DNA from: Actinomycetota bacterium
Lineage (GTDB): Bacteria > Actinomycetota > Actinomycetes > S36-B12 > UBA10799
DNA length: 32,874 bases
Reading direction: 5' to 3'
NCBI GenBank assembly: GCA_963169225.1
Contig: CAUJDH010000094.1
Location: 1 to 32,874, forward strand
The position numbers and the translations under genes were made by a program. Position 1 is the stretch's first letter, and each line of letters opens with the position of its first letter. The notes under the pieces are model-generated. The model was not told the DNA's origin. It did not search any database and worked only from the letters and a program-made list of their open reading frames with translations. Shown piece by piece: positions 1 to 10,893 of this stretch.

Positions 1-469
1 CTGGCTGATCATTGGCAGGCCTACAGGCCAAGAGGTTGATGGACTTATCGAAGTGCTCGGTGGTGGAACCGTTAAGCCATTTAGGTCCGTCGTGCTCATC
101 GGGTCGACGACCTGTGAAGCTGACTACGTGACCAGCTGCGTTAACGATGGGGAGCACCATGCGATCTCGGAAGAGATCGTAGAGAACACCAGTCTCAGTG
201 CGCTTAATGATTCCGGTGGCAAGTAGGTGCTCATCGGTGTAGCCCAGTGCCCGTAAATGGGTGACGAGTGCTGACCAGCCACTAGGTGCATATCCAAGCC
301 CGAACCGGAGCTGTTTGGCGTCTTCGAGGCCTCGTTCGCGAAGGTAGTCATAAACCCAACTGCCAAGCTGGCGGCGGTAGAACCGAGAGGCCTCAGCCAG
401 CGCGTTGAGGACAGGATCGTGAAAGTCGAGGCTTGAGCCTCGACTGGTCCACGGCCTGGGCGTGCTCAT
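1..469 (-). CDS. DnaG-like primase, N-terminal part (cut by window start)
   Basis: This is an open reading frame on the minus strand that starts with ATG at 469 and runs off the left end, so only about the first 156 residues are visible. It resembles the N-terminal part of the DnaG catalytic core (Toprim_N): an ASRFYRRQL helix, RFGLGYAP followed by GW, YDLFRDRMVLPI, then VSFTGR and GPKWLN. These are hallmark blocks of bacterial primase cores. No CHC2 zinc-binding domain precedes the core, as in many plasmid-borne primases. The start overlaps the stop of the upstream DUF2958-like gene by ATGA, so the two are translationally coupled. The likely role is priming of plasmid or transferred single strands, which is inferred from family and context. 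The catalytic Toprim acidic residues lie outside the window. Confidence 0.82.
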   Translation of the reverse strand, partial: MSTPRPWTSRGSSLDFHDPVLNALAEASRFYRRQLGSWVYDYLRERGLEDAKQLRFGLGYAPSGWSALVTHLRALGYTDEHLLATGIIKRTETGVLYDLFRDRMVLPIVNAAGHVVSFTGRRPDEHDGPKWLNGSTTEHFDKSINLLACRPANDQP

Positions 470-861
470 GTGAGCTGCCCTGCCGCTGCTGGCACGAAGC
501 GTGCGATCGCATCGCGAAGTGTGGGACGTTGAGAGGCGGGGAAGATTGTTGCCTTCACCAAAGTCGGAGTGTTATCGATAACGGTTCGACCAACGGCATC
601 AATCAGTTCGATCGAGGTCCAAAGGACTTGTTCGTTGAGTTCATGCAACGAAAAGTAGCCAAGCTCGGCGTTTTGCGGATCATTGAGACAAGCCCAACCG
701 AACGCCATGTGTTCGACCGGGTCGTATTCAGTGACCAACCACACGAACCCGTTAGGGAGCGTGTAGGCGGCAAAACAAGTGGCATCCTTGCCACGACCAT
801 CTTGAGCGTAGAGCGCAGCCGTGTCGGCCGGTGGTGTCTTGAGAATGAGTGTTTTTTGCAT
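466..861 (-). CDS. DUF2958-like protein
   Basis: A protein of 131 residues starting MQKTLILKTPPADTAALY. It contains a block like that of the DUF2958 family, WLVTEYDP, then FGWA and ELGYFSLHEL. This family is common on plasmids and phages next to replication or DNA-processing genes and its biochemical role is unknown. The start at 861 was chosen because AAAGGAG lies 7 nt upstream. The frame stays open further upstream to 1170, but that extension is rich in Cys, Trp and Arg and does not look like protein. The stop overlaps the start of the primase (ATGA), which argues for a joint role in replication or conjugation. Family assignment is by visual pattern only. Confidence 0.72.
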   Translation of the reverse strand: MQKTLILKTPPADTAALYAQDGRGKDATCFAAYTLPNGFVWLVTEYDPVEHMAFGWACLNDPQNAELGYFSLHELNEQVLWTSIELIDAVGRTVIDNTPTLVKATIFPASQRPTLRDAIARFVPAAAGQLT

Positions 862-1166
862 GATGAGGCTCCTTTGCCGAGTCTGCTGCTCGTTGGTCAG
901 AGTTGTTTCTGACAAAGCGACGTCAGATTCGCCCGCAGCTGCACAGCGGCCACTCAAGCCCCAGTGGAGAGACAAAGTTTTTGCGCAGCAACAAAGTTTG
1001 CGATCCACGCCAGGGACCCACAACGTGGGCCGTTGTACTCGAAGAGGACGACGATCAGTTGAGTTGCGCAGGGCAGAGCGGGCGCTAGAATCTCGTCGCC
1101 AGAAGCAAGTCGATTCAAGACACCAATCGGTGAAGTAAGCACGGGTGGATGGTGTTGCGGTTGTCA
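862..1166. other. Gene-poor interval between DUF2958-like gene and toxin gene
   Basis: About 305 nt without a convincing gene. On the minus strand a GTG-initiated frame of 62 codons (954-1142) has a fairly protein-like composition but no recognisable family and no clear ribosome binding site. A second frame starts ATGATGA, overlapping the toxin stop, and reads through into the DUF2958-like gene. It could be a translated leader or the relic of a longer coupled gene. No terminator-like hairpin with a T-tract was seen, so the toxin-antitoxin genes, DUF2958-like gene and primase may be one transcript. Confidence 0.35.
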
Positions 1167-1442
1167 TCATTGGGCACCTGCGATCGAGAGGTAATCCGGT
1201 CGATCCGCAATCCGGTCGATCCGTACGAGCTTTTTGTTTTCGTCGATCAAATACAGAATCCGGTAGCTGCCTCGATGGGCACCGTAGAAGCCCTCGAGGG
1301 GTGCCTGAAGGGCTGAGCCGGCTCGTTCCGGAGATGCTTGCAGGACACCGAAGGTGAACTCCACAATCGCAGGAACAGTACGTTGCGGGATCTCACGAAG
1401 ATCCCGCAACGCGGTTCGGCTGAAAGTCACGACGTAGCTCAT
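1167..1442 (-). CDS. ParE/RelE-family toxin
   Basis: A 91-residue protein starting MSYVVTFSRTALRDLREIP. It has the usual length and pattern of the RelE/ParE superfamily: an N-terminal beta strand, the ALRDLREIP helix, a central LEGFYGAHRGSYRILYLID strand pair and the C-terminal VRIDRIADRPDYL block. Family members are mRNA interferases (RelE) or gyrase poisons (ParE), and the sequence alone does not decide which. The start overlaps the stop of the antitoxin by 4 nt (ATGA), the standard antitoxin-first arrangement. The likely role is plasmid stabilisation by post-segregational killing. Confidence 0.85.
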   Translation of the reverse strand: MSYVVTFSRTALRDLREIPQRTVPAIVEFTFGVLQASPERAGSALQAPLEGFYGAHRGSYRILYLIDENKKLVRIDRIADRPDYLSIAGAQ

Positions 1443-1726
1443 GCGTCTTTAGGGTTCCCGAACGCACGTCGGACATGGTTTTCGTCGACGAGCTCATCAC
1501 GCGCTTGGTCTTGAGAAGCACGCTCGATGTCATCGAGCGTTCCGGTTTGCGCAAGCCAAAAGAGGGTTTCTTCCATCGCCGCCAGTTCTTGCGGCGAGAT
1601 AACGACGGCGGCTGCTCGGCCGTTGACTGTCAACGTGACCCGATGTTGGGTCCGATTGACTTCATCAACGATTGCCGACAGCTGCGATTTAGCTTCGGTG
1701 ACTGAACGAATATCTGGTGTGGTCAT
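1439..1726 (-). CDS. Phd/YefM-family antitoxin
   Basis: A 95-residue protein starting MTTPDIRSVTEAKSQLSAIVDEV. The N-terminal half matches Phd/YefM antitoxins: SVTEAKSQLSAIVDEVN, then VTLTVNGRAAAVVISPQEL, which forms the dimeric DNA-binding fold. The C-terminal half, charged and helical, would wrap the toxin. The ATG at 1726 is preferred because GAGG lies just upstream. An in-frame start at 1747 would add seven residues. The gene is directly upstream of and overlaps the ParE/RelE-like toxin. A perfect 7-bp inverted repeat about 25 bp upstream is a likely autoregulatory operator. Confidence 0.85.
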   Translation of the reverse strand: MTTPDIRSVTEAKSQLSAIVDEVNRTQHRVTLTVNGRAAAVVISPQELAAMEETLFWLAQTGTLDDIERASQDQARDELVDENHVRRAFGNPKDA

Positions 1727-1748
1727 AGCCTCATACCTACCACACAAC

Positions 1749-1766
1749 AGGTCTGAATACAGACCT
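1749..1766. promoter_or_regulatory. Inverted-repeat operator upstream of antitoxin
   Basis: Arms AGGTCTG and CAGACCT are perfect 7-bp complements separated by AATA. The site lies 23 bp upstream of the Phd-like start. Phd/YefM antitoxins repress their own operon through palindromes of this kind, so it is probably the antitoxin operator. Confidence 0.6.
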
Positions 1767-2056
1767 AAGCAAGTCCGAATAAAGCCCCGATAATAGATAT
1801 TATGTCATTTTGGGTGTGGCGGCGACCACCAACTCTCTTCTTCGAGCGGCACCTTCGAGCTAATTTTTGCCGATATTAAAAGTAGGACGAGTGCTCAAAC
1901 TACTGCTGTTGGGAGCACGTTAAAGAGACAACTCAATAGTGAGCTTCCGTCAAAAAAATCGCTAGTGGTTTAGCCGATAACTATTAGTGAGGAACCGGAT
2001 TAAAGAAGACCGGCACACTCAAGAGTGAACGAATCGAGAGAGGAAGGAGGAAAGCT
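1767..2056. other. Intergenic region, no gene seen
   Basis: About 290 nt between the divergent antitoxin gene and the small membrane peptide gene. It is AT-richer than its surroundings and should hold promoters in both directions. A weak inverted repeat (ATAAT, 4-nt spacer, ATTAT) lies at 1790-1803. No open frame with a ribosome binding site was recognised. Confidence 0.4.
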
Positions 2057-2227
2057 ATGGAAGCACCGGAAACCGGCAAAGAGCCGGAGACGAAAAAGGA
2101 CCCTAAACCCAAACGTAAGTGGACTAAGTGGGTCAAGGTCCTTATCGTCACCGGGCTAGTGGTCATTCGTGCAGTGAATGACTTGGCCCGCTTCGTATCG
2201 CAAATTGGCGACTGGTTATTCATGTAA
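2057..2227 (+). CDS. Small single-span membrane peptide, 56 aa
   Basis: A short gene read directly from the plus strand, ATG at 2057 to TAA at 2227. A strong ribosome binding site, GGAAGGAGG, ends 6 nt before the start. The peptide has a charged proline- and lysine-rich N-terminus (MEAPETGKEPETKKDPKPKR), then WTKWVKVLIVTGLVVIRAV, which could be one membrane segment, and a short amphipathic tail ending DWLFM. No family is recognised. A hairpin terminator follows at 2243. The strong ribosome binding site and sensible composition make it a real gene candidate despite its length. Confidence 0.6.
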   Translation: MEAPETGKEPETKKDPKPKRKWTKWVKVLIVTGLVVIRAVNDLARFVSQIGDWLFM

Positions 2228-2242
2228 CAGTCCCACTCTAAC

Positions 2243-2293
2243 GTGAGTGTCCTGCCCTCGCAACTATCACGGCCGCGGGGACAGGACACTCAC
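2243..2293. terminator. Bidirectional hairpin terminator
   Basis: Perfect 12-bp arms GTGAGTGTCCTG (2243-2254) and CAGGACACTCAC (2282-2293) enclose a GC-rich loop. It lies between the plus-strand membrane peptide gene and the convergent minus-strand hicB gene. There is no long T-tract, so termination may be of the actinobacterial type with little U-tail. Confidence 0.6.
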
Positions 2294-2323
2294 ACACCAC
2301 CGCTCCCCTACCGGATCTGAGGT

Positions 2324-2887
2324 TTAGACGTGTTCGCTTAGATCCGTTTCTTGGCTGTCGTGCCAATCTTCAAATCCGCCTTCGGGTTTAAGCGTGAAGA
2401 TCTTTGTTGTCGGAGCTGCGACAACATTGACCGGTTGGAGGGTCTTACCTATGGCGATATTCCAAAGTGATGAGCAGCCACACCGGTTTTCGGTGGATTG
2501 GTTGAAAGTCTCTCGCAAGGGCAACCAGGGCCGCTCGTCTTTTGGCGACTCGGACTGTCTCCGCTTGGCCAAGATGGTCAAGACATATTGGTTCAGGGAA
2601 ACACTTTGTTCGGCCGCTTCGAGGACAAGTTCTCTATGCAATGCCTTTGGCGCACGTAAAACGAAGCGACCTGAGTAGTTTCGATCTGCTAACGGAACGG
2701 GCACTGTTTCGCCCGATGCCTGCATATCCTCAATTACTTCTTGTACGAGCTGACGCAGACCGGCAAGCGCTTCTGCTGGGTCTTCGGCAAGCCACGACAG
2801 CGAGGGAAATTCCACAACGGTTGCAACATGCTCATCATCGTCGTCTGACCAGGTCACACGATATTGGTATCGATCGTTGGTATTCAC
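2324..2887 (-). CDS. hicB: HicB-family antitoxin with ribbon-helix-helix domain
   Basis: A 187-residue protein. Residues 1-70 have the HicB partial RNase H-like fold pattern: YRVTWSDDDDEHVATVVEFPSLSWLAEDPAEALAGL. Residues 70-108 are a ribbon-helix-helix DNA-binding domain (SGRFVLRAPKALHRELVLEA, then SLNQYVLTIL). About 75 further residues follow. This is longer than the usual 110-140 aa of HicB with an RHH domain, and the extension matches nothing I recognise. Its start overlaps the HicA stop by 4 nt, giving the toxin-first order typical of hicAB. It should neutralise HicA and repress the operon, probably at the palindrome at 3166-3181. Confidence 0.85.
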   Translation of the reverse strand: MNTNDRYQYRVTWSDDDDEHVATVVEFPSLSWLAEDPAEALAGLRQLVQEVIEDMQASGETVPVPLADRNYSGRFVLRAPKALHRELVLEAAEQSVSLNQYVLTILAKRRQSESPKDERPWLPLRETFNQSTENRCGCSSLWNIAIGKTLQPVNVVAAPTTKIFTLKPEGGFEDWHDSQETDLSEHV

Positions 2888-3135
2888 TGTTGTTCCTCCT
2901 TGAGCTTGTCGATCGCTTTAAGGACTTGGCGAACTTGATAAGTCTTGGCCATATTTTTTTGGGCTTGGATATTCACTCGTGGGTCGCCGGCCCATGGCAT
3001 TTTGTAGGTGTAGTGCGAGGTGGCCTTATTCCGCGGTTCTTCAAAATAGTGGTCACACACTTTTTTGAGGTCGTTGAACTTCGTGCCTTCTGGGTTTTGG
3101 CGCATTTGGTCAACAAGTTTGTCTATCTTTGACAC
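2884..3135 (-). CDS. hicA: HicA-family mRNA interferase toxin
   Basis: An 83-residue protein. The C-terminal part, TSHYTYKMPWAGDPRVNIQ followed by AKTYQVRQVLKAIDKL, has the pattern of actinobacterial HicA toxins. The conserved His after Ser (SH) is the expected catalytic residue of the double-stranded-RNA-binding-like fold. HicA cleaves mRNA during translation and is blocked by HicB. The start is GTG at 3135. No clear ribosome binding site precedes it, so it may be poorly initiated or nearly leaderless. The gene is coupled to hicB by an ATGA overlap and is transcribed away from the membrane-protein gene at 3205. Confidence 0.83.
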   Translation of the reverse strand: MSKIDKLVDQMRQNPEGTKFNDLKKVCDHYFEEPRNKATSHYTYKMPWAGDPRVNIQAQKNMAKTYQVRQVLKAIDKLKEEQQ

Positions 3136-3158
3136 ACAACAATGGTACTACGGGCGAT

Positions 3159-3181
3159 ACTATAATGTAAACGGGTTTACA
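3159..3181. promoter_or_regulatory. Divergent promoter and operator of hicAB and the membrane-protein gene
   Basis: A plus-strand TATAAT (3161-3166) overlaps a minus-strand TATAGT (3164-3159). Next to them lies an inverted repeat, TGTAAAC, GG, GTTTACA (3166-3181). For the minus promoter the palindrome would lie between the -35 and -10 positions. HicB RHH proteins bind such sites, so it is a likely operator controlling both directions. Confidence 0.55.
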
Positions 3182-3204
3182 TCATGGAGTGAAGGGGTGG
3201 TTTG

Positions 3205-3660
3205 GTGAGCACGCGAGTAAAGTGGATTTTTGTCTCGGGCTTTTATGCAGTGTTAACGCTATGGGTGGGCTTGTACTTCGCCCCAACAGATTTAGCGAGT
3301 GATCCTCCCCCACCGGGATTGGAAGAAAAGCTCGATCTGGCCCTGCTGGTGGGGTCATCACTGGTGGTGCTGCTGGGTGAAACGATTACGTTTTCGTTGC
3401 TGGCCTGCGCTGAAGCATCCCATGATCGTTGGCGGGCACTGATGCTCAATGTGTTGGCATCGTTGGGAGTGGTTGGTGCTGTTGGTACATGGTTGGTGGG
3501 GTCGGCGTCGATCCACATGCCTCTGTTGCCTTCATCCTCAAAGGATTTGCTCGGCTTGTATGCGGCTGCCGCTGTCGTGTCCTACGCGGCTGGTTGGCTC
3601 CTTCTACTGGACAAGTGGAAGGTCCCGCGCACTGTGGGCGAGGTAAGCGAGAGATCCTAA
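3205..3660 (+). CDS. Four-span integral membrane protein of unknown function
   Basis: A 151-residue protein with about four hydrophobic segments: IFVSGFYAVLTLWVGLYF near the N-terminus, LALLVGSSLVVLLGETITFS, LNVLASLGVVGAVGTWLVG and LLGLYAAAAVVSYAAGWLLL. A proline-rich outside loop (DPPPPG) follows the first span. The GTG start at 3205 was chosen because GAAGGGG lies 7-8 nt upstream; a TTG one codon earlier is possible. No family is recognised. It is divergent from hicAB and followed by a strong terminator. Membrane proteins beside plasmid backbones can act in entry exclusion, but nothing in the sequence shows that here. Confidence 0.7.
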   Translation: MSTRVKWIFVSGFYAVLTLWVGLYFAPTDLASDPPPPGLEEKLDLALLVGSSLVVLLGETITFSLLACAEASHDRWRALMLNVLASLGVVGAVGTWLVGSASIHMPLLPSSSKDLLGLYAAAAVVSYAAGWLLLLDKWKVPRTVGEVSERS

Positions 3661-3682
3661 ATCCTGACGTTCCCGCACAGTC

Positions 3683-3725
3683 CCCGACTTATGAACTTCG
3701 TAAGTTCATAAGTCGGGCGTTTTTT
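3683..3725 (+). terminator. Rho-independent terminator with long palindrome
   Basis: Perfect 16-bp arms CCCGACTTATGAACTT and AAGTTCATAAGTCGGG (3683-3698, 3702-3717) enclose a 3-nt loop and are followed by six T on the plus strand. It ends the membrane-protein transcript. The stem contains the TATGAACTT/AAGTTCATA sequence that recurs between 5.9 and 9.1 kb. Confidence 0.85.
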
Positions 3726-4332
3726 AGGGGTTGTTTGTTGCCTTCCAGTTTTCGGCAAGGACTGAGCTGAGGCGGTTTACGGTCCATTCCAATAAGGGTG
3801 CGTGCCCGTTGGCAATGATGCTGTGGCGTAGGTCGCGCACTACTTCAAAAATGGTTTCGGGGTCGTTATCGCTATTGAGAATGTCGAGGTCGTAAATCAC
3901 GGTTGGACTATCCCCCACACTGTCGGCTATACCGCCTTCAACGACGACTGCTGGGCCTGCTGGCGTTTGGGTTGGCTCGTTGCCGAATAGGCCGGTGATT
4001 TTGAGGGCCCGTTCGAGTGCGTCGTTGCGGGGCTCACCATATTGTTCAAGTATCACGAAACCGCGCACGTGACTTCCGTAGTAGAGATCACCCCATCCGA
4101 GGTGAACGATTACTTGGTTGTCGTCTTCGCAATCGTCGTCAGTCATGGCAACCCAGATCAGATCGGGATTGTCTTCGATCCATTCGTCTTCGCGGGTCCA
4201 GTTGAGGCCTTCGATGATGACGGTGCAGTGGTTGGTGTCTTCGATGATCTGGGTGTTAGTTTCGTTTGCTGCGAATCGTTTGGCAGCTTCTTTGGTGGCG
4301 AGAGTTATTTCGCAGTTTCCACGGTTACTCAT
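3724..4332 (-). CDS. Acidic protein of unknown function, 202 aa
   Basis: A soluble, strongly acidic protein starting MSNRGNCEITLATKEAAKRF. It has no signal peptide and no membrane span. Notable stretches are TDDDCEDDNQVIVHLGWGDLYYG in the middle and ILNSDNDPETIFEVVRDLRHS near the end. I recognise no family. The ATG at 4332 has TTAGGAG 5 nt upstream. The gene is preceded by an unusually long, hairpin-rich leader (4345-4783) that shares sequence with the leader of the next gene. The stop is inside the T-tract of the plus-strand terminator. High acidity is compatible with a DNA mimic or anti-defence protein, but this is speculation. Confidence 0.65.
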   Translation of the reverse strand: MSNRGNCEITLATKEAAKRFAANETNTQIIEDTNHCTVIIEGLNWTREDEWIEDNPDLIWVAMTDDDCEDDNQVIVHLGWGDLYYGSHVRGFVILEQYGEPRNDALERALKITGLFGNEPTQTPAGPAVVVEGGIADSVGDSPTVIYDLDILNSDNDPETIFEVVRDLRHSIIANGHAPLLEWTVNRLSSVLAENWKATNNP

Positions 4333-4344
4333 GGTGTCTCCTAA

Positions 4345-4783
4345 TTTTGGGTGTGTTCCATAGCTCGGGTGTTTCCCGATAACAGCCGCTCAATCCGTCC
4401 GCAGGCCGGTAGTGCCGTGCTGGGTAGGCAGATTTTCAAGATTGTTTTTGCTGGCAAAAAGATCTCTGAAACATCTGACGCACTCCGATGGACCCACGTA
4501 GTGGGCCAGTTGGCGCGAAGGTCTAAGGACATTAGGATGCGGCGATCGGGAACTCTCGGCCGCTTCAGCGGCCATAAAAGAAGTGTGCCGGTGAATTGTC
4601 TGGCTGTCCGGGCATCATCTGCAGCGGTAGCTGCCTAGCCCGCCGGCCAGACAATCGGCACTCCCCTAGCTTGTTCAGCGGCATACCGTCTGGTCGAGTG
4701 TGCCGCAAACCCCGAACCTGTGAGGGGTAGAAGTAGTCGTGGCCGCGTCAGCGGCCTCCACTTTGGCGTTCGTAGAGTGAGTG
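4345..4783 (-). promoter_or_regulatory. Long structured leader upstream of the acidic-protein gene
   Basis: About 440 nt without a credible gene, lying upstream of the minus-strand gene at 4332. It contains, in minus-strand order, the hairpin GGCCGC-TGAC-GCGGCC (4741-4756), a long interrupted stem (4585-4661) with arms ATTGTCTGGC/GCCAGACAAT extended by GTGCCG/CGGCAC, a second GGCCGC hairpin (4558-4573), the sequence TTCCCGATCGCCGCA (4552-4538), one copy of the AGATCTTTTA-type hairpin element (4437-4468), and a small stem TCGGG-AAACA-CCCGA (4379-4365). Several of these recur in the leader at 5268-5610. A structured regulatory RNA is a reasonable inference, since some hairpins could also be terminators for the gene at 4825. 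Confidence 0.5.
4437..4468. repeat. Hairpin repeat element, copy 1
   Basis: The copy reads CAAGATTG, a TTTTTGC/GCAAAAA stem, then AGATCTCTG. It is the most diverged of five copies that share CAAGA(C)TG, a TTTTAG/CTAAAA-type stem and AGATCT. It lies in the leader of the acidic-protein gene. Confidence 0.6.
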
Positions 4784-4813
4784 CAGGTGGCGGCGCAGTC
4801 GCGCCGCCACCTG
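4784..4813 (-). terminator. Strong GC hairpin after the DUF4192-like gene
   Basis: Perfect 13-bp arms CAGGTGGCGGCGC and GCGCCGCCACCTG enclose the loop AGTC. It lies 11 nt beyond the stop of the minus-strand gene at 4825. It has no T-tract, as is common for actinobacterial terminators. Confidence 0.65.
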
Positions 4814-4824
4814 GGCCCGGTTGG

Positions 4825-5250
4825 CTAGTTGCCCATGAGTTGTTTCATGGAGTGTTCTGTCATGACCTCGGCCCATGCGCTCGTTGGTAGTCCGGTGATG
4901 ATTGCGCTCATAACGAGCTGGGTGAGCACGTTGGTGCCATCGGCAGCTCGTGCGCGTTCGGCGTGGATCATGGCACGATCATTTCGACCGCTTACCCAGT
5001 GTCCGAGCGCGAGGACGCTCCCGATCGCTGCGAGGCCTTGCGGTTCATCCGCTACGACGGCAATAACTTCGAGGTCACCGAGTAGATCGTGAAGATCCAC
5101 GGTGTGATCGTACGTTGCCGCGCGTAGTAATGGCTCACGGTTGTATTGGTTTGTGAGCAACCGTCCGATGGTGTTGGCATGGCTTCGATCACCGTTGGTG
5201 ATCTCTTTCGCCACTGTGGTGATCTTGGCGTGCATGGTGGCCGGCTTCAT
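4825..5250 (-). CDS. DUF4192-like protein (short form)
   Basis: A 141-residue protein. Its second half, IGSVLALGHWVSGRNDRAMIHAERARAADGTNVLTQLVMSAIITGLPTSAW, resembles the C-terminal part of the actinobacterial DUF4192 family, where the pattern is a hydrophobic helix, then a small basic-residue helix, then a short block ending in Gly-Leu-Pro and Trp. Full-length members are usually more than 300 aa, so this is a shortened relative. Its function is unknown. ATG at 5250 has AAGGGAG 6 nt upstream. Like its neighbour at 3724 it has a long hairpin-rich leader containing two copies of the repeat element, and a strong hairpin follows its stop. Confidence 0.6.
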   Translation of the reverse strand: MKPATMHAKITTVAKEITNGDRSHANTIGRLLTNQYNREPLLRAATYDHTVDLHDLLGDLEVIAVVADEPQGLAAIGSVLALGHWVSGRNDRAMIHAERARAADGTNVLTQLVMSAIITGLPTSAWAEVMTEHSMKQLMGN

Positions 5251-5360
5251 AACTGTCTCCCTTAGTCCTGACGCTAGGTGCGCCTTACTCGGGTGTTTCC
5301 CGATAGCAGCGGGCCCCTAGTGCCCAAGGCGGGAGTGCCGTGCCGGTAGGGACCGGAACA

Positions 5361-5396
5361 CAAGATGTTTTAGACCGCAGGCCTAAAAGATCTCTG
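5361..5396. repeat. Hairpin repeat element, copy 2
   Basis: The copy reads CAAGATGTTTTAG, a short loop region ACCGCAGGC, then CTAAAAGATCTCTG. It lies 30 nt before copy 3 in the same leader. It lacks one base of the CTG found in copies 3-5. Confidence 0.65.
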
Positions 5397-5426
5397 GGGC
5401 TCCGGTCACGTATCCGAGATCGAGGA

Positions 5427-5463
5427 CAAGACTGTTTTAGCCCATCGGGCTAAAAGATCTGTG
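5427..5463. repeat. Hairpin repeat element, copy 3
   Basis: The copy reads CAAGACTG, a perfect TTTTAGCCC/GGGCTAAAA stem with a 3-nt loop, then GATCTGTG. The outer AGA/TCT can pair across an asymmetric internal loop (CTG opposite GA). Confidence 0.7.
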
Positions 5464-5620
5464 GCCTCGAGTGAGGGCGCAGTCCACCATAATTGTCTTA
5501 TTCGGTGGACTGTATTGAGTCGGCTGGCGCGACGCCGCCGGGCACTGAAGGGTGCGGCGATCGGGAAACGAGAAACAGCGACTAACCCCACTGTGATGCG
5601 GGTTAGGAGAAAAGAAACGG

Positions 5621-5644
5621 ATACTGCGCTAGAGAGCGCAGTAT
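5621..5644 (-). terminator. Terminator after the 67-aa gene
   Basis: Perfect 10-bp arms ATACTGCGCT/AGCGCAGTAT enclose a 4-nt loop. On the minus strand the stem is followed by a T-rich stretch (CCGTTTCTTTTC). It lies about 40 nt beyond the stop of the gene at 5682. Confidence 0.7.
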
Positions 5645-5681
5645 TCCTTGCCTGGCATGGTTTTGACGCAGCTGCGATTTG

Positions 5682-5885
5682 TTACTGCCAGGTGACGGTG
5701 CGGCCGTCAGGCAGTGTTAAGTGAATTGGCCCGTTGACGTAGCCGTCAATGAGCGTGGCGTGCTCAGTGAGGGCAGCTGCGAGACGCTGTTCGTTTTCAG
5801 TGTGCTCGCGATCGGGAGCTGATAGTCGCGAGAGACGTTCATACTCGAGGCGACTGTTGAGAGAGTGTTCACTGTTGGTGGCCAT
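5682..5885 (-). CDS. Small hydrophilic protein of unknown function, 67 aa
   Basis: The protein begins MATNSEHSLNSRLEYERLSRLS, continues with a charged helical part, and ends with a beta-like HLTLPDGRTVTWQ. It has no membrane span. ATG at 5885 has GGAGG 7 nt upstream, and a clear terminator follows, which supports it as a gene. It is the third gene after parA and the partition-partner gene, separated from the latter by the palindrome at 5904-5930. Its function is unknown; a role in partition or copy control would only be inferred from position. Confidence 0.62.
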   Translation of the reverse strand: MATNSEHSLNSRLEYERLSRLSAPDREHTENEQRLAAALTEHATLIDGYVNGPIHLTLPDGRTVTWQ

Positions 5886-5903
5886 GATGAATCCTCCGAA
5901 TCA

Positions 5904-5930
5904 AGTTATGAACTTTGGAAGTTCATAACT
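5904..5930. repeat. Long-form TATGAACTT/AAGTTCATA palindrome
   Basis: Perfect 12-bp arms AGTTATGAACTT and AAGTTCATAACT are separated by TGG. It lies between the partition-partner gene and the 67-aa gene. It shares its arms with the terminator at 3683-3717 and the half-sites with the sites upstream of parA. Confidence 0.8.
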
Positions 5931-5935
5931 CTAGT

Positions 5936-6316
5936 TTAGTTGGTGAGTGATCGTAGGAGTTCAGCTTCGGTGCCACCTGCGAGTGAGGCTTGTTGGGCGA
6001 TGAGCGCATCCACGGCGACCCGAATGAGGGTGTTGCCGGTAATTCGCGCCGGCAGGTCCCTACCTGCGCGCCTTTCTTGATCTGAGATCTTCTTAGCTAG
6101 TCGATCGAGCTCTTCCATTTGACCTGGATGAAGCCGCGCTGTTTTGGCCTCGAGGTCCTGGTAGCGCGGGTTCGGTCGCCTGCCCGCAGCCTGGGCGCGG
6201 TCATTGGCGTTTCGTACGGTGGCTGTGGGAGTAGTTGGTGGCACGTTCTGCGCAGGTGTCTCATTGAGTGATGAGAGTGCATTTCCTATGCGGCGGTTTG
6301 ATTTGGTGGTGGCCAT
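5936..6316 (-). CDS. Small ParA-partner protein (ParB-like candidate)
   Basis: A 126-residue basic protein starting MATTKSNRRIGNALSSL. The first 50 residues are disordered, rich in Pro, Thr, Asn and Arg. The rest is helical: KTARLHPGQMEELDRLAKKI, then ITGNTLIRVAVDALIAQQ, which resembles a helix pair of a small ribbon-helix-helix-type centromere-binding protein. It starts 13 nt after the parA stop with AAAGGA upstream, the usual parA-parB order. It is not a classical HTH ParB with a CTP-binding domain. It would bind a plasmid centromere, and the TATGAASTTCATA palindromes around it are natural candidates. Operon position is strong evidence; the fold is inference. Confidence 0.65.
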   Translation of the reverse strand: MATTKSNRRIGNALSSLNETPAQNVPPTTPTATVRNANDRAQAAGRRPNPRYQDLEAKTARLHPGQMEELDRLAKKISDQERRAGRDLPARITGNTLIRVAVDALIAQQASLAGGTEAELLRSLTN

Positions 6317-6329
6317 GATGGGGTCCTTT

Positions 6330-7022
6330 CTATTGGTTGATAGAAGCGTGTTCGTCAGTGAGGTCCACTACCCGGTCGTTTGTTGCTGCCCCGGCGAGTA
6401 GTTCGGTGGTGAACCGGCGCATGTCGGTGACCGCGGCATTTGATGATTTGCCAGGCCCGTAGGTAGGGGCTGTGAGTCCGAACTCGGGAGCGGTTTCATG
6501 CACCTTGTATGCGCGGATCGCGGTTTTGAAGGTGGGAAGATTCGCTTCGTCGAGCGCTGCCCTTGTGGCTTCAAGGTCTGTTTTTCCACCTCGAGCCATG
6601 TCTACGTTGTTGATGACCACTTTGTGGTCAACACCGGCCGGCCGAACGACCTCTGTGATGGAGCGGGCTAACGGACGGAAGCTTAGATACTTGGCATCGG
6701 TGACGAGGACAGCGAGATCCGCGACTTCCAACACTGCCGGCATGATGCCTTCAGCGTGCAGCCGGCCAGGGCAGTCGACGATGACAAGGTCGTAATCGAG
6801 CGACTTCAGTTTGCGTAACTGTTGGGGATCGATGGAAGCATCCACATCGAAGGTAAGACTGTCATCGTCGATGTTGGTGGACCAGTCGTAGCTGGACTGT
6901 TGCTCGTCGACGTCGACGAGCAACACCGAAGAAAACTCGGCTGCGATAGCAGCTGTGTTCATAGCGAGAGTGGTTTTACCTACCCCACCTTTTTGTGAGC
7001 AGATGGCAATGATGCGCGGCAT
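6330..7022 (-). CDS. parA: ParA-family plasmid partition ATPase
   Basis: A 230-residue protein starting MPRIIAICSQKGGVGKTT. The deviant Walker A motif KGGVGKTT with signature lysine is at residues 11-18. SVLLVDVDEQQSSYDW (Walker A' region) and YDLVIVDCPGRLHAEG (Walker B) follow. The short form without an N-terminal HTH is type Ib-like ParA. It binds DNA non-specifically in the ATP form and moves plasmids with its partner. The start at 7022 has GAAAGGA 9 nt upstream. An upstream in-frame start at 7058 would place coding sequence through the repeats, so it was rejected. Two tandem palindromes at 7047-7077 lie just upstream and could be operator and centromere. Confidence 0.93.
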   Translation of the reverse strand: MPRIIAICSQKGGVGKTTLAMNTAAIAAEFSSVLLVDVDEQQSSYDWSTNIDDDSLTFDVDASIDPQQLRKLKSLDYDLVIVDCPGRLHAEGIMPAVLEVADLAVLVTDAKYLSFRPLARSITEVVRPAGVDHKVVINNVDMARGGKTDLEATRAALDEANLPTFKTAIRAYKVHETAPEFGLTAPTYGPGKSSNAAVTDMRRFTTELLAGAATNDRVVDLTDEHASINQ

Positions 7023-7046
7023 AGACGAGATCCTTTCAAGTGGACG

Positions 7047-7077
7047 TATGAACTTCATAAGATATGAACTTCATAAG
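7047..7077. repeat. Two tandem TATGAACTTCATAAG repeats upstream of parA
   Basis: Two identical 15-bp copies of TATGAACTTCATAAG (7047-7061, 7063-7077) with 16-bp spacing. Each contains the 13-bp palindrome TATGAACTTCATA. The first copy starts 25 bp upstream of the parA start codon. Confidence 0.85.
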
Positions 7078-7311
7078 TTGAGACTACTCGCTGGTGGGGG
7101 TTGAGAGTGTCTTATGCGCGCATCTTTGACGACTTTTTTCACCGGTCCCCTATCCCAAAAGCCTTTAGGTGTGCTTAGCGTCGCGAGAAGCGGCCTGTGA
7201 GCGAGTTTTGACTTGTCAATGCGGATATTTATGTGTCGCTACATTTGACAGCTCTACGGCCCTGATAGCGGTTTCGATTTGTTGGGGCATATTTACTCCC
7301 CTAGCGCGTCT
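7078..7311. other. Intergenic region upstream of parA
   Basis: About 230 nt between the tandem repeats and the palindrome after fic. It presumably holds the parA promoter on the minus strand; a TTGACA is present (7219-7214) but no good -10 lies at the right distance. It also contains a possible 24-codon reading frame, listed separately. Confidence 0.4.
7216..7290 (-). CDS. Possible 24-aa peptide upstream of parA
   Basis: The frame runs from ATG at 7290 to TGA at 7216 and encodes MPQQIETAIRAVELSNVATH plus four residues. AGGGGAG lies 5 nt upstream of the ATG, a strong ribosome binding site. The peptide is soluble and matches nothing I know. It could be a small protein or a translated leader. 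Confidence 0.3.
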   Translation of the reverse strand: MPQQIETAIRAVELSNVATHKYPH

Positions 7312-7350
7312 AACTTCATAAGTTATGAAGTTCATATCTTCATAACTTAT
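7312..7350. repeat. TATGAASTTCATA palindrome cluster after fic
   Basis: Arms AACTTCATAA and TTATGAAGTT (7312-7321, 7323-7332) form a perfect inverted repeat around one base. They overlap the 13-bp palindrome TATGAAGTTCATA (7324-7336). A further CTTCATAACTTAT follows. The cluster ends a few bases past the fic stop. Confidence 0.8.
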
Positions 7351-7353
7351 GTG

Positions 7354-8100
7354 CTAATCGTCGATTCCCCGACCGGCCTCGAGGCTTTGGTCGTTAGTGG
7401 GGCCTGGTTCTGCCCATCCGAAACTGCGTATCGGCAACAGCTTGTCGCCGATTGTCGGGTGCTGAGCTGCTAGAGCTTTCGCCGACACTGCTTGCTTGGA
7501 TCGGGGCGGTAGGTCGATGACGACGTCGTCGAGCAGCGTGATGAGGTGATCGGCTTTACCGGTTTGCCGGTCGTGGTGGCACGCTGCGATGTTGTCGGCT
7601 TCAGTGACGCGGTTCCAGTCGAGATCCCATCCCGCATCGTTGGTAAGCCTGGCCAGGAAGATGCGTTGAGTGCGGCCGTTACCCTCGCGAAATGGGTGAA
7701 TGTAGTTGAAGTCGTTGTAATAGGAGGCGATTCTTTCGACGAATTCGCTTCGAGGGAGTTTTGCCAGCTCAGCTGGTGTGGCAACTGTGGCGGCCGTGTT
7801 GTGTGCCATGGTGCGGATCATTGAGACTGGCCCGAAGGGTTCGCCACCTTTCCAAATATCCAGGGTACGGATCTCCCCCGCCCAGGGGTAAATGTCTTGG
7901 AAAAGGTGGCGATGAATAGCCTCAAGCTCAACAAGGTCCCGAGTTGGTTTAATCGTAATCTCGTCGAGCCCGTAAGAGCGAATGGTGGCAAAGCGGCGCT
8001 CTCTATCGTCAAGTTCCGACTGAGTGGTGGCACCGGTGAGGTTGCGCAGAATCCCGGTATTGGGATCGATATAAGGATCTTCGGAATTAGATGAGGCCAT
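7354..8100 (-). CDS. fic: Fic-domain toxin (adenylyltransferase family)
   Basis: A 248-residue protein with the canonical Fic motif HPFREGNGRTQR beginning at His135. The preceding helices LVELEAIHRHLFQDIYPWAGEIR and the flap region (DIWKGG, then FGPVSMI) are typical. Fic enzymes transfer AMP from ATP to hydroxyl groups of target proteins; VbhT-type relatives target gyrase and topoisomerase IV. All active-site residues of the motif are present, so it should be active when not inhibited. The start overlaps the VbhA-like antitoxin gene by 14 nt. A tail of about 60 residues after the core, ending SLEAGRGIDD, is of unknown function. It is probably an addiction module of the element. Confidence 0.93.
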   Translation of the reverse strand: MASSNSEDPYIDPNTGILRNLTGATTQSELDDRERRFATIRSYGLDEITIKPTRDLVELEAIHRHLFQDIYPWAGEIRTLDIWKGGEPFGPVSMIRTMAHNTAATVATPAELAKLPRSEFVERIASYYNDFNYIHPFREGNGRTQRIFLARLTNDAGWDLDWNRVTEADNIAACHHDRQTGKADHLITLLDDVVIDLPPRSKQAVSAKALAAQHPTIGDKLLPIRSFGWAEPGPTNDQSLEAGRGIDD

Positions 8101-8302
8101 AGTCTTGCTTGGCCCTGGCGATCGCTTGATCGACAGTAATCTCGCCGCGAATCAGAGCATTCGCTTCAGGAACGGTATCTGCGTTTACTTCGATACCTTC
8201 GAGAGCGAAATTGTCAGCGACCCGCTGCATACGCACCAGACGTACTGCTTCGGCCTGAGTGCGAGCGGAAACGAATGCGGCCTTTGCGGTGGTGTGAGTC
8301 AT
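8087..8302 (-). CDS. VbhA-like antitoxin of the Fic toxin
   Basis: A 71-residue protein. The stretch RVADNFALEGIEVNADTVPEA, then LIRGEITVDQAIARA, lines up with the VbhA antitoxin, whose inhibitory helix carries [S/T]xxxE[G/N]. Here the segment is NFALEG, so the glutamate that blocks the ATP site is kept, but the usual Ser/Thr is Asn. The ATG at 8302 has GAAGGG upstream; the frame upstream of it, through the palindromes, does not look coding. The gene precedes and overlaps fic, the standard order for class I Fic modules. Confidence 0.82.
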   Translation of the reverse strand: MTHTTAKAAFVSARTQAEAVRLVRMQRVADNFALEGIEVNADTVPEANALIRGEITVDQAIARAKQDYGLI

Positions 8303-8376
8303 GGAATGCCCTTCCGTCGTTCTTGGGTCGTGGTTATATTCTACCGCGCCATAGGCAGAATAGTCAGATAAACACT

Positions 8377-8409
8377 TATGAAGTTCATAACTTCTTAAGT
8401 TCATAACTT
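8377..8409. repeat. TATGAAGTTCATA palindrome and phased half-site upstream of the fic module
   Basis: The 13-bp palindrome TATGAAGTTCATA is at 8377-8389. AAGTTCATAACTT occurs twice (8381-8393, 8397-8409), again with 16-bp spacing. The cluster lies between whiB and the antitoxin gene, about 75 bp upstream of the latter. Confidence 0.8.
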
Positions 8410-8421
8410 GGCTGGTATTAG

Positions 8422-8709
8422 TCATCGGGTCACCCGACCTGCTGGTTGGAGCATGGTGGCCACGAGCTGCGTCCAGCTGGTGGAGTGTTGGTTGTCGCGG
8501 ATGAGCTTGCGGCGTTCGCGTTCAGTCAAGCCACCCCAGATGCCGTATTCGTGCTCGCCTTCGAGCGCTTCGGTTAGGCATTCGGCACGCACGGGGCACT
8601 GTGCGCAGACTTTCTTGTTCGTGCGCTGCGCTTTGCCAGGCTCGAACATGGTGTCAATTCCGACGCTTCGGCAGACGGCTTGGTGTTCCCAACCGATTCG
8701 AGTGGTCAT
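8422..8709 (-). CDS. WhiB-family iron-sulphur regulator 1
   Basis: A 95-residue protein with the four cluster cysteines of the WhiB family: Cys13, then CAQC and the cysteine five residues later (AQCPVRAEC). The G[I/V]WGG turn is present as YGIWGGL, followed by the basic TERERRKLIR segment that contacts DNA. WhiB-like proteins carry a 4Fe-4S cluster, bind the primary sigma factor and regulate transcription. They are confined to Actinobacteria and their phages and plasmids. ATG at 8709 has AAGGAG 7 nt upstream. The gene has a long leader with two copies of the hairpin repeat. A second WhiB lies in the transfer operon (27530). Confidence 0.95.
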   Translation of the reverse strand: MTTRIGWEHQAVCRSVGIDTMFEPGKAQRTNKKVCAQCPVRAECLTEALEGEHEYGIWGGLTERERRKLIRDNQHSTSWTQLVATMLQPAGRVTR

Positions 8710-8830
8710 GGCAATCTCCTTACGCTGGCGATAGGTAGTTAGTGGTTGATAGTTGGTGTGCTTGAAAGCGTCACCGTGACCAATCGCGCCTAAAGCCCAG
8801 GGCTGGTCAAGGGCAGGCGAGTAGGGGAGT

Positions 8831-8867
8831 CAAGACTGTTTTAGACCGCAGGGCTAAAAGATCTTTG
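8831..8867. repeat. Hairpin repeat element, copy 4
   Basis: The copy reads CAAGACTGTTTTAG, then ACCGCAGGG, then CTAAAAGATCTTTG. The loop region ACCGCAGG is shared with copy 2. Confidence 0.7.
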
Positions 8868-8895
8868 CCTTCCACGAAGTCGACGCAAAGAGGGT

Positions 8896-8925
8896 CAAGA
8901 CTGTTTTACGAAGTAAAAGATCTGT
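8896..8925. repeat. Hairpin repeat element, copy 5
   Basis: The shortest copy: CAAGACTG, a TTTTAC/GTAAAA stem with a GAA triloop, then GATCTGTG. The stem sequence changes on both sides relative to copies 2-4, which keeps pairing while the flanks stay constant. Confidence 0.7.
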
Positions 8926-9073
8926 GACGATCGAGCGGCCGAAGCTACCGAAGGTAGCTGATGTGCCCTTGACCTGGCGGGGCTGCGCGATAGCGTGTGC
9001 GCAGTTGAGAGCCAACAACTAGGTCAGTCAACCACTTCTCTCGCTAGCAGATTGCCCGCACGACTTATGAAGG

Positions 9074-9086
9074 TATGAACTTCATA
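9074..9086. repeat. TATGAACTTCATA palindrome after rep
   Basis: A single perfect 13-bp copy, preceded by a half-site ACTTATGAA at 9063. It lies about 20 bp past the rep stop. Confidence 0.75.
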
Positions 9087-9105
9087 ACCAGGTGCCGGCC
9101 GTGGC

Positions 9106-10893
9106 TTAGCTTGTGTTCGATAGACGGCTCATTGTTCCTGGTGCGCGAGCTCGTGTGAGTGCTTCGAGTTCGTCTTCCACGAGGATCCCGACATCGAGTG
9201 CGTCGGATAGCTCTCGTTCTCGATGCGCCAGCAGTGCCGCTTCAGTGGCCCGAACACTCGGTAGCGTGCTCAGGTATTCGCGCCATTTGGCTCGTTGGGT
9301 CGCGTAGGAGCGGCGTTGGATGATTTCTAGCTCATCAGCACCCAATTGGGTAGCGACTACTGCAGGGTCCGCTGTTCCTTGGGTCCAGCCGGTAGGGGAG
9401 CGCCGAGCGAGCTGGTGGCCTTCTAGTGCTGCGAGTGCTTTAGTGACAGTGGTTCTCGACCGTTTGAGAGTGTTCGCTAGTGCTGTCACAGTGACTTCGT
9501 GTTCACGCAAGCGGATGAGCTCTTCATATACTTCGGCAACCTGGTGGCCACCCAAGATCCGGAACACCGCAAGGCTTCCATGAACTTTGCCCCGCCACGG
9601 CTCAACGTGGCGGGTATGTTCAAGGTTCAAAGCCCACCGGTCGGCTTCGATACCTTGAGCTCGCCGGGTTCTCCAAATCAGCTGGTCGTCCTCGAGCTGG
9701 TGCAGGATCTGGGCAACTCCGGAGTGAGAAAGCCCAGTAGCCAACGCCAGAGATCGCACACCGACGTTAATCCAGGTAGTGTTCAAAGTCAGAGCCATAG
9801 CCCCAACAGCACGCACTACAGCTTGTTGAGCGGGCGTATAGACACCACCGGTAGCTCTCCTGCCTTCCGCTGTTGCCCACGTGAGCCAGCGTCGAATCTG
9901 AGTATTAACCGATGAATCTAAATCAGTGTCCCTAGCTGCCCCCCGTGTAGTCACATGGCTTGTGTCCATTTGGTGAACAGTCTTCCAAGACTCCGCATTT
10001 CCCTGCGCTTTTTTGAACTCGTACACCGCCCAACGGCCAACTTGTTCGGCCGAGTGCTTCTTCTCGAAGGCCAGGCGAAGCCAGGACCAACGGGTGTTCA
10101 CTGCCCGTAGATAGTCCTGGTGTGACCAGCCAGCCCTCGCGGCCGCACCTGCGATCGCGATACGAGCTTCGGAGTCGGAATCGTAATCGTGGCCACCATT
10201 GGTCGCGATCTGCTCCCAGCGAGGCGGTAGCGAGCGTCCACGCAGGTCAATGACCGTGGCATCGGTGAGCTCGATCGTGGGGTCTTCCGCGGCAGGGGCA
10301 GGGAATAGCTCGAGCAGTGTCGCCCACGCGCCGGCATGAGTGCCGCGCTCAAGGAGCTGCGCAAAGGAATCCTTATCGTGCTCGTACATGCTCTGATAGC
10401 CACCAGAAGCATGACGGGATCCGGTCGGCCGGATACAGCCCGATGAACGGTTAACCAGCGGGCTAATGTCCAGACTTGCCCAGCGACGTCTTAAAGCCTT
10501 CGCTAGCGGAACAATGGAGGCATGGGGAATAGGGGAGTGTAGGCGGGCGTAAACGTGCCAACCGCCAGTTGGTGCATAGTCGGCCCACGCCGCAAATCCG
10601 CAGCCTTGGAGGACCTGTAGCGCATCGAGGGCTTCTTCAGCTACCAGCTGACGGCCGTAACCCTTTTTGGCGTCGAAGTCTAAAACGAGGGTGTGCAGCT
10701 GAACAGTTTCGTCGTAGAGCATGACGGCAGCTGGCCTCGAGGGAAGCTCACTGGTGAGAGGTCCTTGGGATCCTGCTGGGTATGCGACGCCGGTTCCTCG
10801 AGGCTGCGCCAGGCGCATCGCGGGTTTACCGGCAATAACAGCTGCAGTGTGGCTCCACCAATAGCCAGCTGGGATGCGATTTCGATTAGTCAT
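9106..10893 (-). CDS. Replication protein with AEP primase-polymerase-like domain
   Basis: A 595-residue protein. The N-terminal 200 residues look like an archaeo-eukaryotic primase (prim-pol) domain as found in actinobacterial plasmid Rep proteins: LVLDFDAK with the metal-binding DFD at 72-74 (motif I), GGWHVYARL with His113 (motif II), then LDISPLV and SGCIRPTGSRH. Residues about 200-290 resemble a PriCT-like linker (ARAGWSHQDYLRAVNTRWSW). The C-terminal half contains at least two winged-helix units, including VRSLALATGLSHSGVAQILHQLEDDQLI and VTALANTLKRSRTTVTKALAAL. It would recognise the origin and prime replication. No ribosome binding site is obvious before the ATG at 10893. A candidate small RNA and its promoter lie just upstream, divergent. 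Confidence 0.78.
   Translation of the reverse strand: MTNRNRIPAGYWWSHTAAVIAGKPAMRLAQPRGTGVAYPAGSQGPLTSELPSRPAAVMLYDETVQLHTLVLDFDAKKGYGRQLVAEEALDALQVLQGCGFAAWADYAPTGGWHVYARLHSPIPHASIVPLAKALRRRWASLDISPLVNRSSGCIRPTGSRHASGGYQSMYEHDKDSFAQLLERGTHAGAWATLLELFPAPAAEDPTIELTDATVIDLRGRSLPPRWEQIATNGGHDYDSDSEARIAIAGAAARAGWSHQDYLRAVNTRWSWLRLAFEKKHSAEQVGRWAVYEFKKAQGNAESWKTVHQMDTSHVTTRGAARDTDLDSSVNTQIRRWLTWATAEGRRATGGVYTPAQQAVVRAVGAMALTLNTTWINVGVRSLALATGLSHSGVAQILHQLEDDQLIWRTRRAQGIEADRWALNLEHTRHVEPWRGKVHGSLAVFRILGGHQVAEVYEELIRLREHEVTVTALANTLKRSRTTVTKALAALEGHQLARRSPTGWTQGTADPAVVATQLGADELEIIQRRSYATQRAKWREYLSTLPSVRATEAALLAHRERELSDALDVGILVEDELEALTRARAPGTMSRLSNTS

Follow-up and report, generated by a model that had tools for sequence, protein, structure and literature searches.

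On conjugative plasmids such as F and ColIb-P9, long sequences that fold back on themselves, named Frpo or ssi, stand before ssb, anti-restriction and other leading genes, with more than one on a plasmid; in the sections of PMC9849209 and PMC11541004 that describe them, promoter boxes are rebuilt within the stem and the transferred strand is the template of the gene. Going by the same sections, the rapid expression of plasmid protective genes after entry has been worked out mainly in F-like plasmids. In the pLS20 family of Bacillus, a conserved region termed EGeRS1, with several inverted repeats, precedes establishment genes and acts by a mechanism given as unknown in the part of PMC8708921 that treats it. 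We analyzed a 32,874-nucleotide (nt) stretch of plasmid DNA from an Actinomycetota bacterium (contig CAUJDH010000094.1 of assembly GCA_963169225.1, in full; hereafter the window), in which a hairpin occurs five times, distributed over three intergenic regions (regions 1 to 3). We tentatively favor the reading that these regions are Frpo-like single-stranded DNA (ssDNA) promoters of establishment (leading-region) genes, acting on the transferred strand.

Like Frpo and ssi, the regions and the comparable leaders of related plasmids are long noncoding folds that precede ssb, anti-restriction and other leading-region genes, occur more than once on a plasmid and have the gene template on the presumed transferred strand. 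Unlike Frpo, they carry hexamers of an actinobacterial kind, and the window regions bear additional side hairpins that are conserved and have an asymmetric internal loop; the likeness considered here is one of architecture, and our scan for promoters within stems missed the promoter of the Frpo of F itself. With EGeRS1 they share, going by its description, the pattern of multicopy, conserved inverted-repeat regions, several hundred bp in length, before establishment operons, ardC included, in Gram-positive bacteria, and EGeRS1 differs from the window regions in being 400 to 600 base pairs (bp) long, as given in that part of PMC8708921. Structured cis-regulatory RNAs resemble the regions in placing hairpins that have a conserved internal loop in noncoding DNA close to genes; they differ in that the regions match nothing in Rfam and in that the leader family described below has its promoter-like motif on the opposite strand. 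At the level of titles and abstracts, we met no ssDNA promoter from Actinobacteria; texts naming both Frpo and Actinobacteria exist.

Five hairpins with a conserved internal loop

The five copies of the hairpin are all oriented in the sense direction of the minus-strand genes that follow them. An initial annotation, made from the sequence alone, had placed them at 4437, 5361, 5427, 8831 and 8896, and these starts were borne out, as was the asymmetric internal loop, which is conserved across all five copies. The scores below are those of a covariance model built from the five copies.

4437-4468, minus strand: hairpin copy 1, in region 1; short stem, with an A-T to T-A flip; 51.5 bits
5361-5396, minus strand: hairpin copy 2, in region 2; outer stem GACCGGA/TCCGGTC; 62.4 bits
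5427-5463, minus strand: hairpin copy 3, in region 2; outer stem TCGAGG/CCTCGA; 71.3 bits
8831-8867, minus strand: hairpin copy 4, in region 3; 69.5 bits
8896-8926, minus strand: hairpin copy 5, in region 3; closing pair flipped from G-C to C-G; 52.5 bits

On the minus strand, each copy opens with CANAGATC, followed by TTTTA or TTTTT and a variable stem-loop, and ends with TAAAA or AAAAA, then CAG (CAA in copy 1, CA in copy 2) and TCTTG. Pairing of the inner stem is kept across copies despite changes in both its sequence and its length. The compensatory change that the initial annotation had noticed in copy 5 is the G-C to C-G flip of the stem pair adjoining TTTTA/TAAAA, and the A-T to T-A flip of copy 1 adds a second. 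The annotation had further asked for covariation above background: 87.6% of cells in the specified structure are paired, a value reached by none of 500 shuffles, and changes on both sides of a pair, seen at 6 of the 21 pairs, were equaled by 35 of 500 shuffles. Twelve of the 21 pairs are invariant across the five copies. The invariant part of the hairpin looks like a recognition surface, and the variable part looks as if it retains the fold alone. Stems extending beyond the conserved core exceed chance in copies 2 and 3 (9 and 8 of 1,000 shuffles, respectively) and are weak in copy 1 (94 of 1,000); those of copies 4 and 5, measured with a 12-nt flank, are not above chance (928 and 622 of 1,000).

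Closing helices around the hairpins

The gaps between open reading frames (ORFs) that hold the hairpins measure 492 nt (region 1), 431 nt (region 2) and 396 nt (region 3); the initial annotation had given leaders of 320 to 440 nt, and its statement that all of them precede minus-strand genes stands, with the lengths amended. In each gap the arms outside the hairpins are complementary and can form a long-range closing helix.

4373-4552: region 1; closing helix 4373-4380/4545-4552, 8 bp; 8 bp reached by 133 of 1,000 shuffles, weak by itself
5295-5569: region 2; closing helix 5295-5310/5554-5569, 16 nt at 88%; 7 of 1,000 shuffles
8805-8974: region 3; closing helix 8805-8815/8964-8974, 11 bp, perfect; 4 of 1,000 shuffles

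The initial annotation had thus seen part of the structure only, since in two of the three regions (2 and 3) a closing helix encloses the hairpins beyond chance. The helix of region 2 contains a perfect core of 10 bp; the closing arms of region 1 are homologous in sequence to those of region 2, and the helix of region 3 is unlike both. When folded as RNA, the minus strand gave z scores of -2.6, -7.2 and -4.0 for regions 1, 2 and 3, and the plus strand folded as DNA gave -4.3, -7.8 and -5.5; no shuffle was equally stable in any of these comparisons. The plus strand of each of the three regions is thus predicted to form a stable long stem-loop as a single strand, as an Frpo-type element would. 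In a scan of the whole window in 250-nt segments, corrected for G+C content, region 2 scored high on both strands. Regions 1 and 2 also have in common a block, identical at 22 of 23 nt, that contains an inverted repeat and lies 30 to 60 nt ahead of the start codons. No match at the Rfam gathering score was obtained in the window or in five related plasmid loci, and positions 4300-9100 gave one irrelevant subthreshold match only, in line with the earlier remark that no known RNA class was recognized.

An intrinsic-terminator-like hairpin lies on the side from which a sense transcript of region 2 would arrive; 11 such sites were found in the stretch scanned, against a shuffled mean of 6.5.

5621-5644, minus strand: hairpin resembling an intrinsic terminator; about 50 nt upstream of region 2

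Positions 4595-4655, which separate region 1 from the DUF4192-like gene, hold a second inverted repeat that is large but imperfect (ATTGTCTGGC... / ...GCCAGACAAT) and devoid of the conserved hairpin.

Searches for further copies

Within the data searched, the hairpin appears to be private to its source plasmid. The pattern GTTTTN{3,22}AAAAGATCTNTG matched five times in the source genome, always in the same orientation, and not at all in the control reading or in any of the 59 other genomes of a set of relatives. The covariance model detected no sixth copy in the window, where the next match scored 10.3 bits (E = 1) once weak opposite-strand matches of copies 2 to 4 were set aside, and none in the 1.9-Mb genome; the earlier statement that no copies occur outside the three leaders thus held. 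Across 166 genomes of the order, 394 of the class and 396 of the phylum, which are overlapping sets that each include the source genome, the model found no convincing homologue. Searches with the model of 22 loci from related plasmids, and of contigs from two genomes that belong to the same family, also gave nothing. By blastn, the hairpin had no match among plasmids, two of its copies had two weak matches among phages (E of 1 and 5), and window positions 4300-9100 matched plasmids in the Fic and WhiB genes and in unannotated stretches only. No convincing hairpin homologue on another plasmid was therefore obtained by covariance, pattern or blastn search, which is the outcome that the initial annotation had named as refuting its proposal.

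Several stray matches were judged to be due to chance because they are single copies. Covariance matches of 24.6, 26.1 and 31.0 bits occurred once each in three genomes, the best of them (31.0 bits, E = 4e-5, in one genome) lying opposite an ORF of 446 amino acids. The hairpin pattern had no match in viral contigs; a looser pattern hit at least 120 viral stretches, with a single match in each of the 80 listed, and was taken as chance, as were the covariance matches in pattern-selected loci (these 80 viral stretches included), all of them single copies. Among genome contigs the pattern hit 21 stretches from scattered phyla, one match apiece, and these too were taken as chance.

Folded leaders on related plasmids

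The link from the window to related plasmids is its Rep-like protein, which has relatives in 206 plasmid records. Five of these were fetched first; the leaders described here were seen in pTL2A of Cellulosimicrobium, and the other four were not analyzed in detail.

9106-10893, minus strand: Rep-like protein; helix-turn-helix and a subthreshold prim-pol match

The order of genes on pTL2A is primase, DUF genes, ParB, DUF4192, ParA, Rep, transfer genes and relaxase. Window and pTL2A have in common the order primase, DUF4192, ParA, Rep (all on the minus strand), transfer genes (plus strand) and relaxase (minus strand); they differ in WhiB and in the place of Fic/VbhA. On pTL2A, a single leader of about 250 nt with a strong fold is repeated in the long gaps that precede DUF4192, ParB and DUF6573. 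A blastn search with this leader matched 8 plasmid records, and searches with leaders from Cnuibacter and Miniimonas matched 72 and 73, lists that overlap and include near-identical records. An annotated sense-strand gene lies just downstream of 23 of the 24 leaders read, and the genes behind family leaders include SSB operons, ArdC-like ssDNA-binding proteins, ParB, DUF3560, DUF4192 and DUF6573. A survey with the Cnuibacter leader gave matches in 32 of the 394 class genomes, one convincing (E = 2e-18) and the rest short.

These leaders have a fold comparable to that of the window regions and a sequence unrelated to theirs, and by eye the sequence at the base of the fold differs among subfamilies. 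The prediction that related elements would precede similar genes on related plasmids failed for the hairpin itself and succeeded in another form, since the genes for DUF4192, ParB, SSB and ArdC are preceded by leaders that fold but are unrelated in sequence.

In all six plasmids in which both could be seen, the leader genes point toward the start of the relaxase or mobC gene, and most leading genes of F read in the direction of the F transfer genes. In the plasmid record from Paraoerskovia (L174), the transfer block is present twice with the same protein accessions (143-8720 and from 36846 onwards), indicating a duplicated or concatenated record; only the first relaxase is inside the fetched stretch.

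Promoter-like motifs and choice of strand

For motif counts, the 24 leaders were reduced to 19 aligned sequences by removal of 5 near-identical copies. The motif TTGNNN-15..17-[TG]ANN[AGC]T was present in 15 of the 19 on the strand opposite the gene and in 1 of the 19 on the sense strand; in 200 shuffles the count averaged 1.98 and never exceeded 6. With the stricter second hexamer TANNNT, the counts were 7 of 19 on the opposite strand versus 1 on the sense strand (shuffled mean 0.41, maximum 3). Two of the four leaders lacking the looser motif have AATGAT as the second hexamer. In the family, the motif sits in the closing arm as TTG followed at a near-fixed distance by a NANNNT-like hexamer. 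Its position on the strand opposite the genes speaks for the transferred DNA strand as the molecule that folds. In regions 1 and 3 of the window, the best plus-strand promoter match likewise falls in the 3' arm of the fold.

4510-4538, plus strand: promoter-like TTGGCG-17-TAGGAT, in region 1, 3' arm of the plus-strand fold; 8 of 12 consensus matches
8969-8996, plus strand: promoter-like TTGACC-16-TAGCGT, in region 3, 3' arm; 8 of 12 consensus matches; second hexamer paired with low probability

The plus strand had first been favored on the basis of folding energy and G-T pairs, an argument that was dropped after a control on other stretches of the plasmids concerned.

On plasmid F, at 56342-56754 (6343-6755 of locus L180) before an anti-restriction gene, the opposite strand folds into a very large hairpin whose 3' arm holds TTGCAT-15-TAAGAT. 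This stretch was flagged by the stem-promoter scan and is distinct from both Frpo copies that the sections of the Frpo papers cited above describe.

Weighing the readings

According to the reading that we tentatively prefer, the transferred strand, presumably the plus strand and thus the template of the minus-strand genes, would fold back on itself after entry, and the two arms would rebuild a double-stranded promoter within the long stem. Host RNA polymerase would start in this stem, leave it at its 5' side and transcribe the gene ahead of second-strand synthesis, which would then abolish the fold and switch the gene off. The five hairpins would be side arms at the inner end of the folds, where a protein or a polymerase subunit probably recognizes them. 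Because relaxases typically lie in the lagging region, as stated in the relevant part of PMC11541004, the direction of the leader genes suggests that the strand opposite them is the one transferred, as Frpo requires. With slightly less assurance, we suggest that actinobacterial conjugative plasmids may possess their own wide class of ssDNA promoters, which would serve establishment genes such as ssb, ardC and parB. Its subfamilies would be unrelated but alike in architecture, the transferred strand forming a long fold whose 3' arm carries TTGNNN-15/16-NANNNT, and the subfamily of the window would be marked by the repeated internal-loop hairpin. Fold-back leaders before ssb, ardC and parB are present on dozens of actinobacterial plasmid records, so the question would be directly testable there, and such a leader would offer a handle for finding new establishment and anti-defense genes downstream.

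A number of observations weigh against the ssDNA-promoter reading. The looser family pattern was picked after the alignment had been viewed, and the family leaders are homologous, so agreement in the motif reflects conservation and not independent recurrence. In the window, the motif count of two regions out of three stands against an average of 0.43 and a maximum of 3 in shuffles; the best plus-strand match of region 2 lies outside the stem, the sense strand of region 1 carries an equally scoring TTCAGA-18-AACAAT, and a consensus scan of 3600-9300 requiring 9 of 12 matches lists neither of the two plus-strand motifs. In folds of single sequences, less than half of the motif is in long-range pairs in the leaders of Cnuibacter, Rathayibacter, Leifsonia, Amnibacterium, Mycetocola and Frondihabitans. 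The antisense strand of the leaders is more stable by a margin like that seen elsewhere on these plasmids, so that energy does not choose the strand, and G-T pair counts favor whichever strand served for the prediction. In the G+C-corrected scan, region 3 was outside the 22 strongest stretches on either strand and region 1 was among the strongest on the plus strand only. The stem-promoter scan found no promoter in the two copies on F (89% identical and about 5 kb apart) that fit the documented Frpo1 and Frpo2. The origin of transfer (oriT) was not located, and the relaxase gene of the window is cut by the contig end. The window is joined to the leader family by Rep kinship, type of gene, fold and two weak motifs, the sequence of the element having no part in the link, and the 22 related plasmid loci gave the covariance model nothing. 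Finally, genes of this kind on Bacillus pLS20 have the transferred strand as their non-template strand, and the authors of EGeRS1, in that part of PMC8708921, consider an ssDNA promoter highly unlikely for this reason and because no promoter was seen in the fold.

A structured mRNA leader is a possible but doubtful alternative and the strongest of the others. Here the minus-strand RNA would fold, and a protein or ligand bound at the internal loop would alter termination or translation; in one variant, the 3' strand of the closing helix, which by eye can pair further downstream, would act as a switch. The sense orientation of every hairpin copy fits this proposal, as do the RNA z scores given above and the pairs available on the minus strand only, namely, the U-G pair that flanks the internal loop in three of the five copies and the two G-U pairs inside copy 2. 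Copy 3 scores 71 bits on the minus strand versus 26 on the plus strand, a difference that arises in part by construction. Set against these points are the missing Rfam family, the family motif on the opposite strand and the lack of a consensus promoter upstream of the three regions in the scan of 3600-9300, which also misses the plus-strand motifs and whose sole promoter-like site, at 8367-8338, is not upstream of any of the three. The terminator-like hairpin narrows the room for a sense promoter before region 2 yet leaves some; its distance of about 50 nt, together with the sense-strand match in region 1, makes the ssDNA promoter slightly less likely and the RNA leader slightly more likely. 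The initial proposal is partly supported: a particular group of plasmid genes is marked by an element that folds as a single strand, shows compensatory changes and lacks an Rfam match, and the folded molecule may be either the mRNA or, as we prefer, the transferred DNA.

It is unlikely that the regions are ssi-like priming or assembly sites on plasmid ssDNA, at which a DnaG-type primase or another protein would start the second strand. A DnaG-type primase gene at the contig edge and single-strand folds with a conserved loop, all in one orientation, agree with such a role, and Frpo, going by the title of the paper on it, is reported to produce primer RNA. Every region precedes a gene start, however, as do nearly all leaders of the family, so priming alone is insufficient.

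Protein-bound operators or EGeRS-like regulatory sequences acting as duplex DNA, which the inverted-repeat block common to regions 1 and 2 and the features of EGeRS1 bring to mind, are slightly more improbable still, since the half-site spacing differs among the five hairpins by about half a helical turn while the arm asymmetry is kept, features that would suit a hairpin better than a dimer bound to duplex DNA. Integron attC sites and IS200/605 or REP hairpins were dropped as candidates because outer stems and loops differ among copies, and transposon ends, considered for regions 1 and 2, were dropped because region 3 has the same inner hairpins with different ends.

Other features of the window

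The genes that follow the three regions and those at the contig ends are as follows.

3724-4332, minus strand: acidic orphan protein of 202 amino acids, after region 1; no Pfam family
4825-5250, minus strand: DUF4192-like protein, after region 2; 24.2 bits versus a Pfam cutoff of 27.8
8422-8709, minus strand: WhiB-family regulator, after region 3; E = 2.8e-22
2-469, minus strand: DnaG-type primase gene, PF08275 (3e-29), cut by the contig start
31009-32874, minus strand: conjugative relaxase, helicase part; TraA_Ti at 107.7 bits, below its cutoff; cut by the contig end

The DUF4192-like label of the initial annotation corresponds to a match that we also saw, at a score below the cutoff; searches of viral contigs and plasmids gave no relative of the protein. 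The acidic protein had no match in plasmids or viral contigs and, among 197 genomes of the class, matched the source genome only; its AlphaFold model has a mean predicted local distance difference test score of 39, and a role as an anti-restriction DNA mimic is a guess. No relative of ParA was found in viral contigs.

The contig also encodes a conjugative coupling protein, ParA, Fic/VbhA and toxin-antitoxin genes. Genes of the toxin-antitoxin type lie at 1167-1747, 2324-2887 and 7354-8302 (ParE/Phd, a HicB-like protein, and Fic with its VbhA antitoxin). Inverted repeats of the TTATGAACTTCATAA type, at 3683-3713, 5900-5930, 7048-7078, 7309-7347, 8362-8408 and 9059-9089, surround the ParA, Fic, WhiB and Rep genes and are probably operator, iteron or partition sites.

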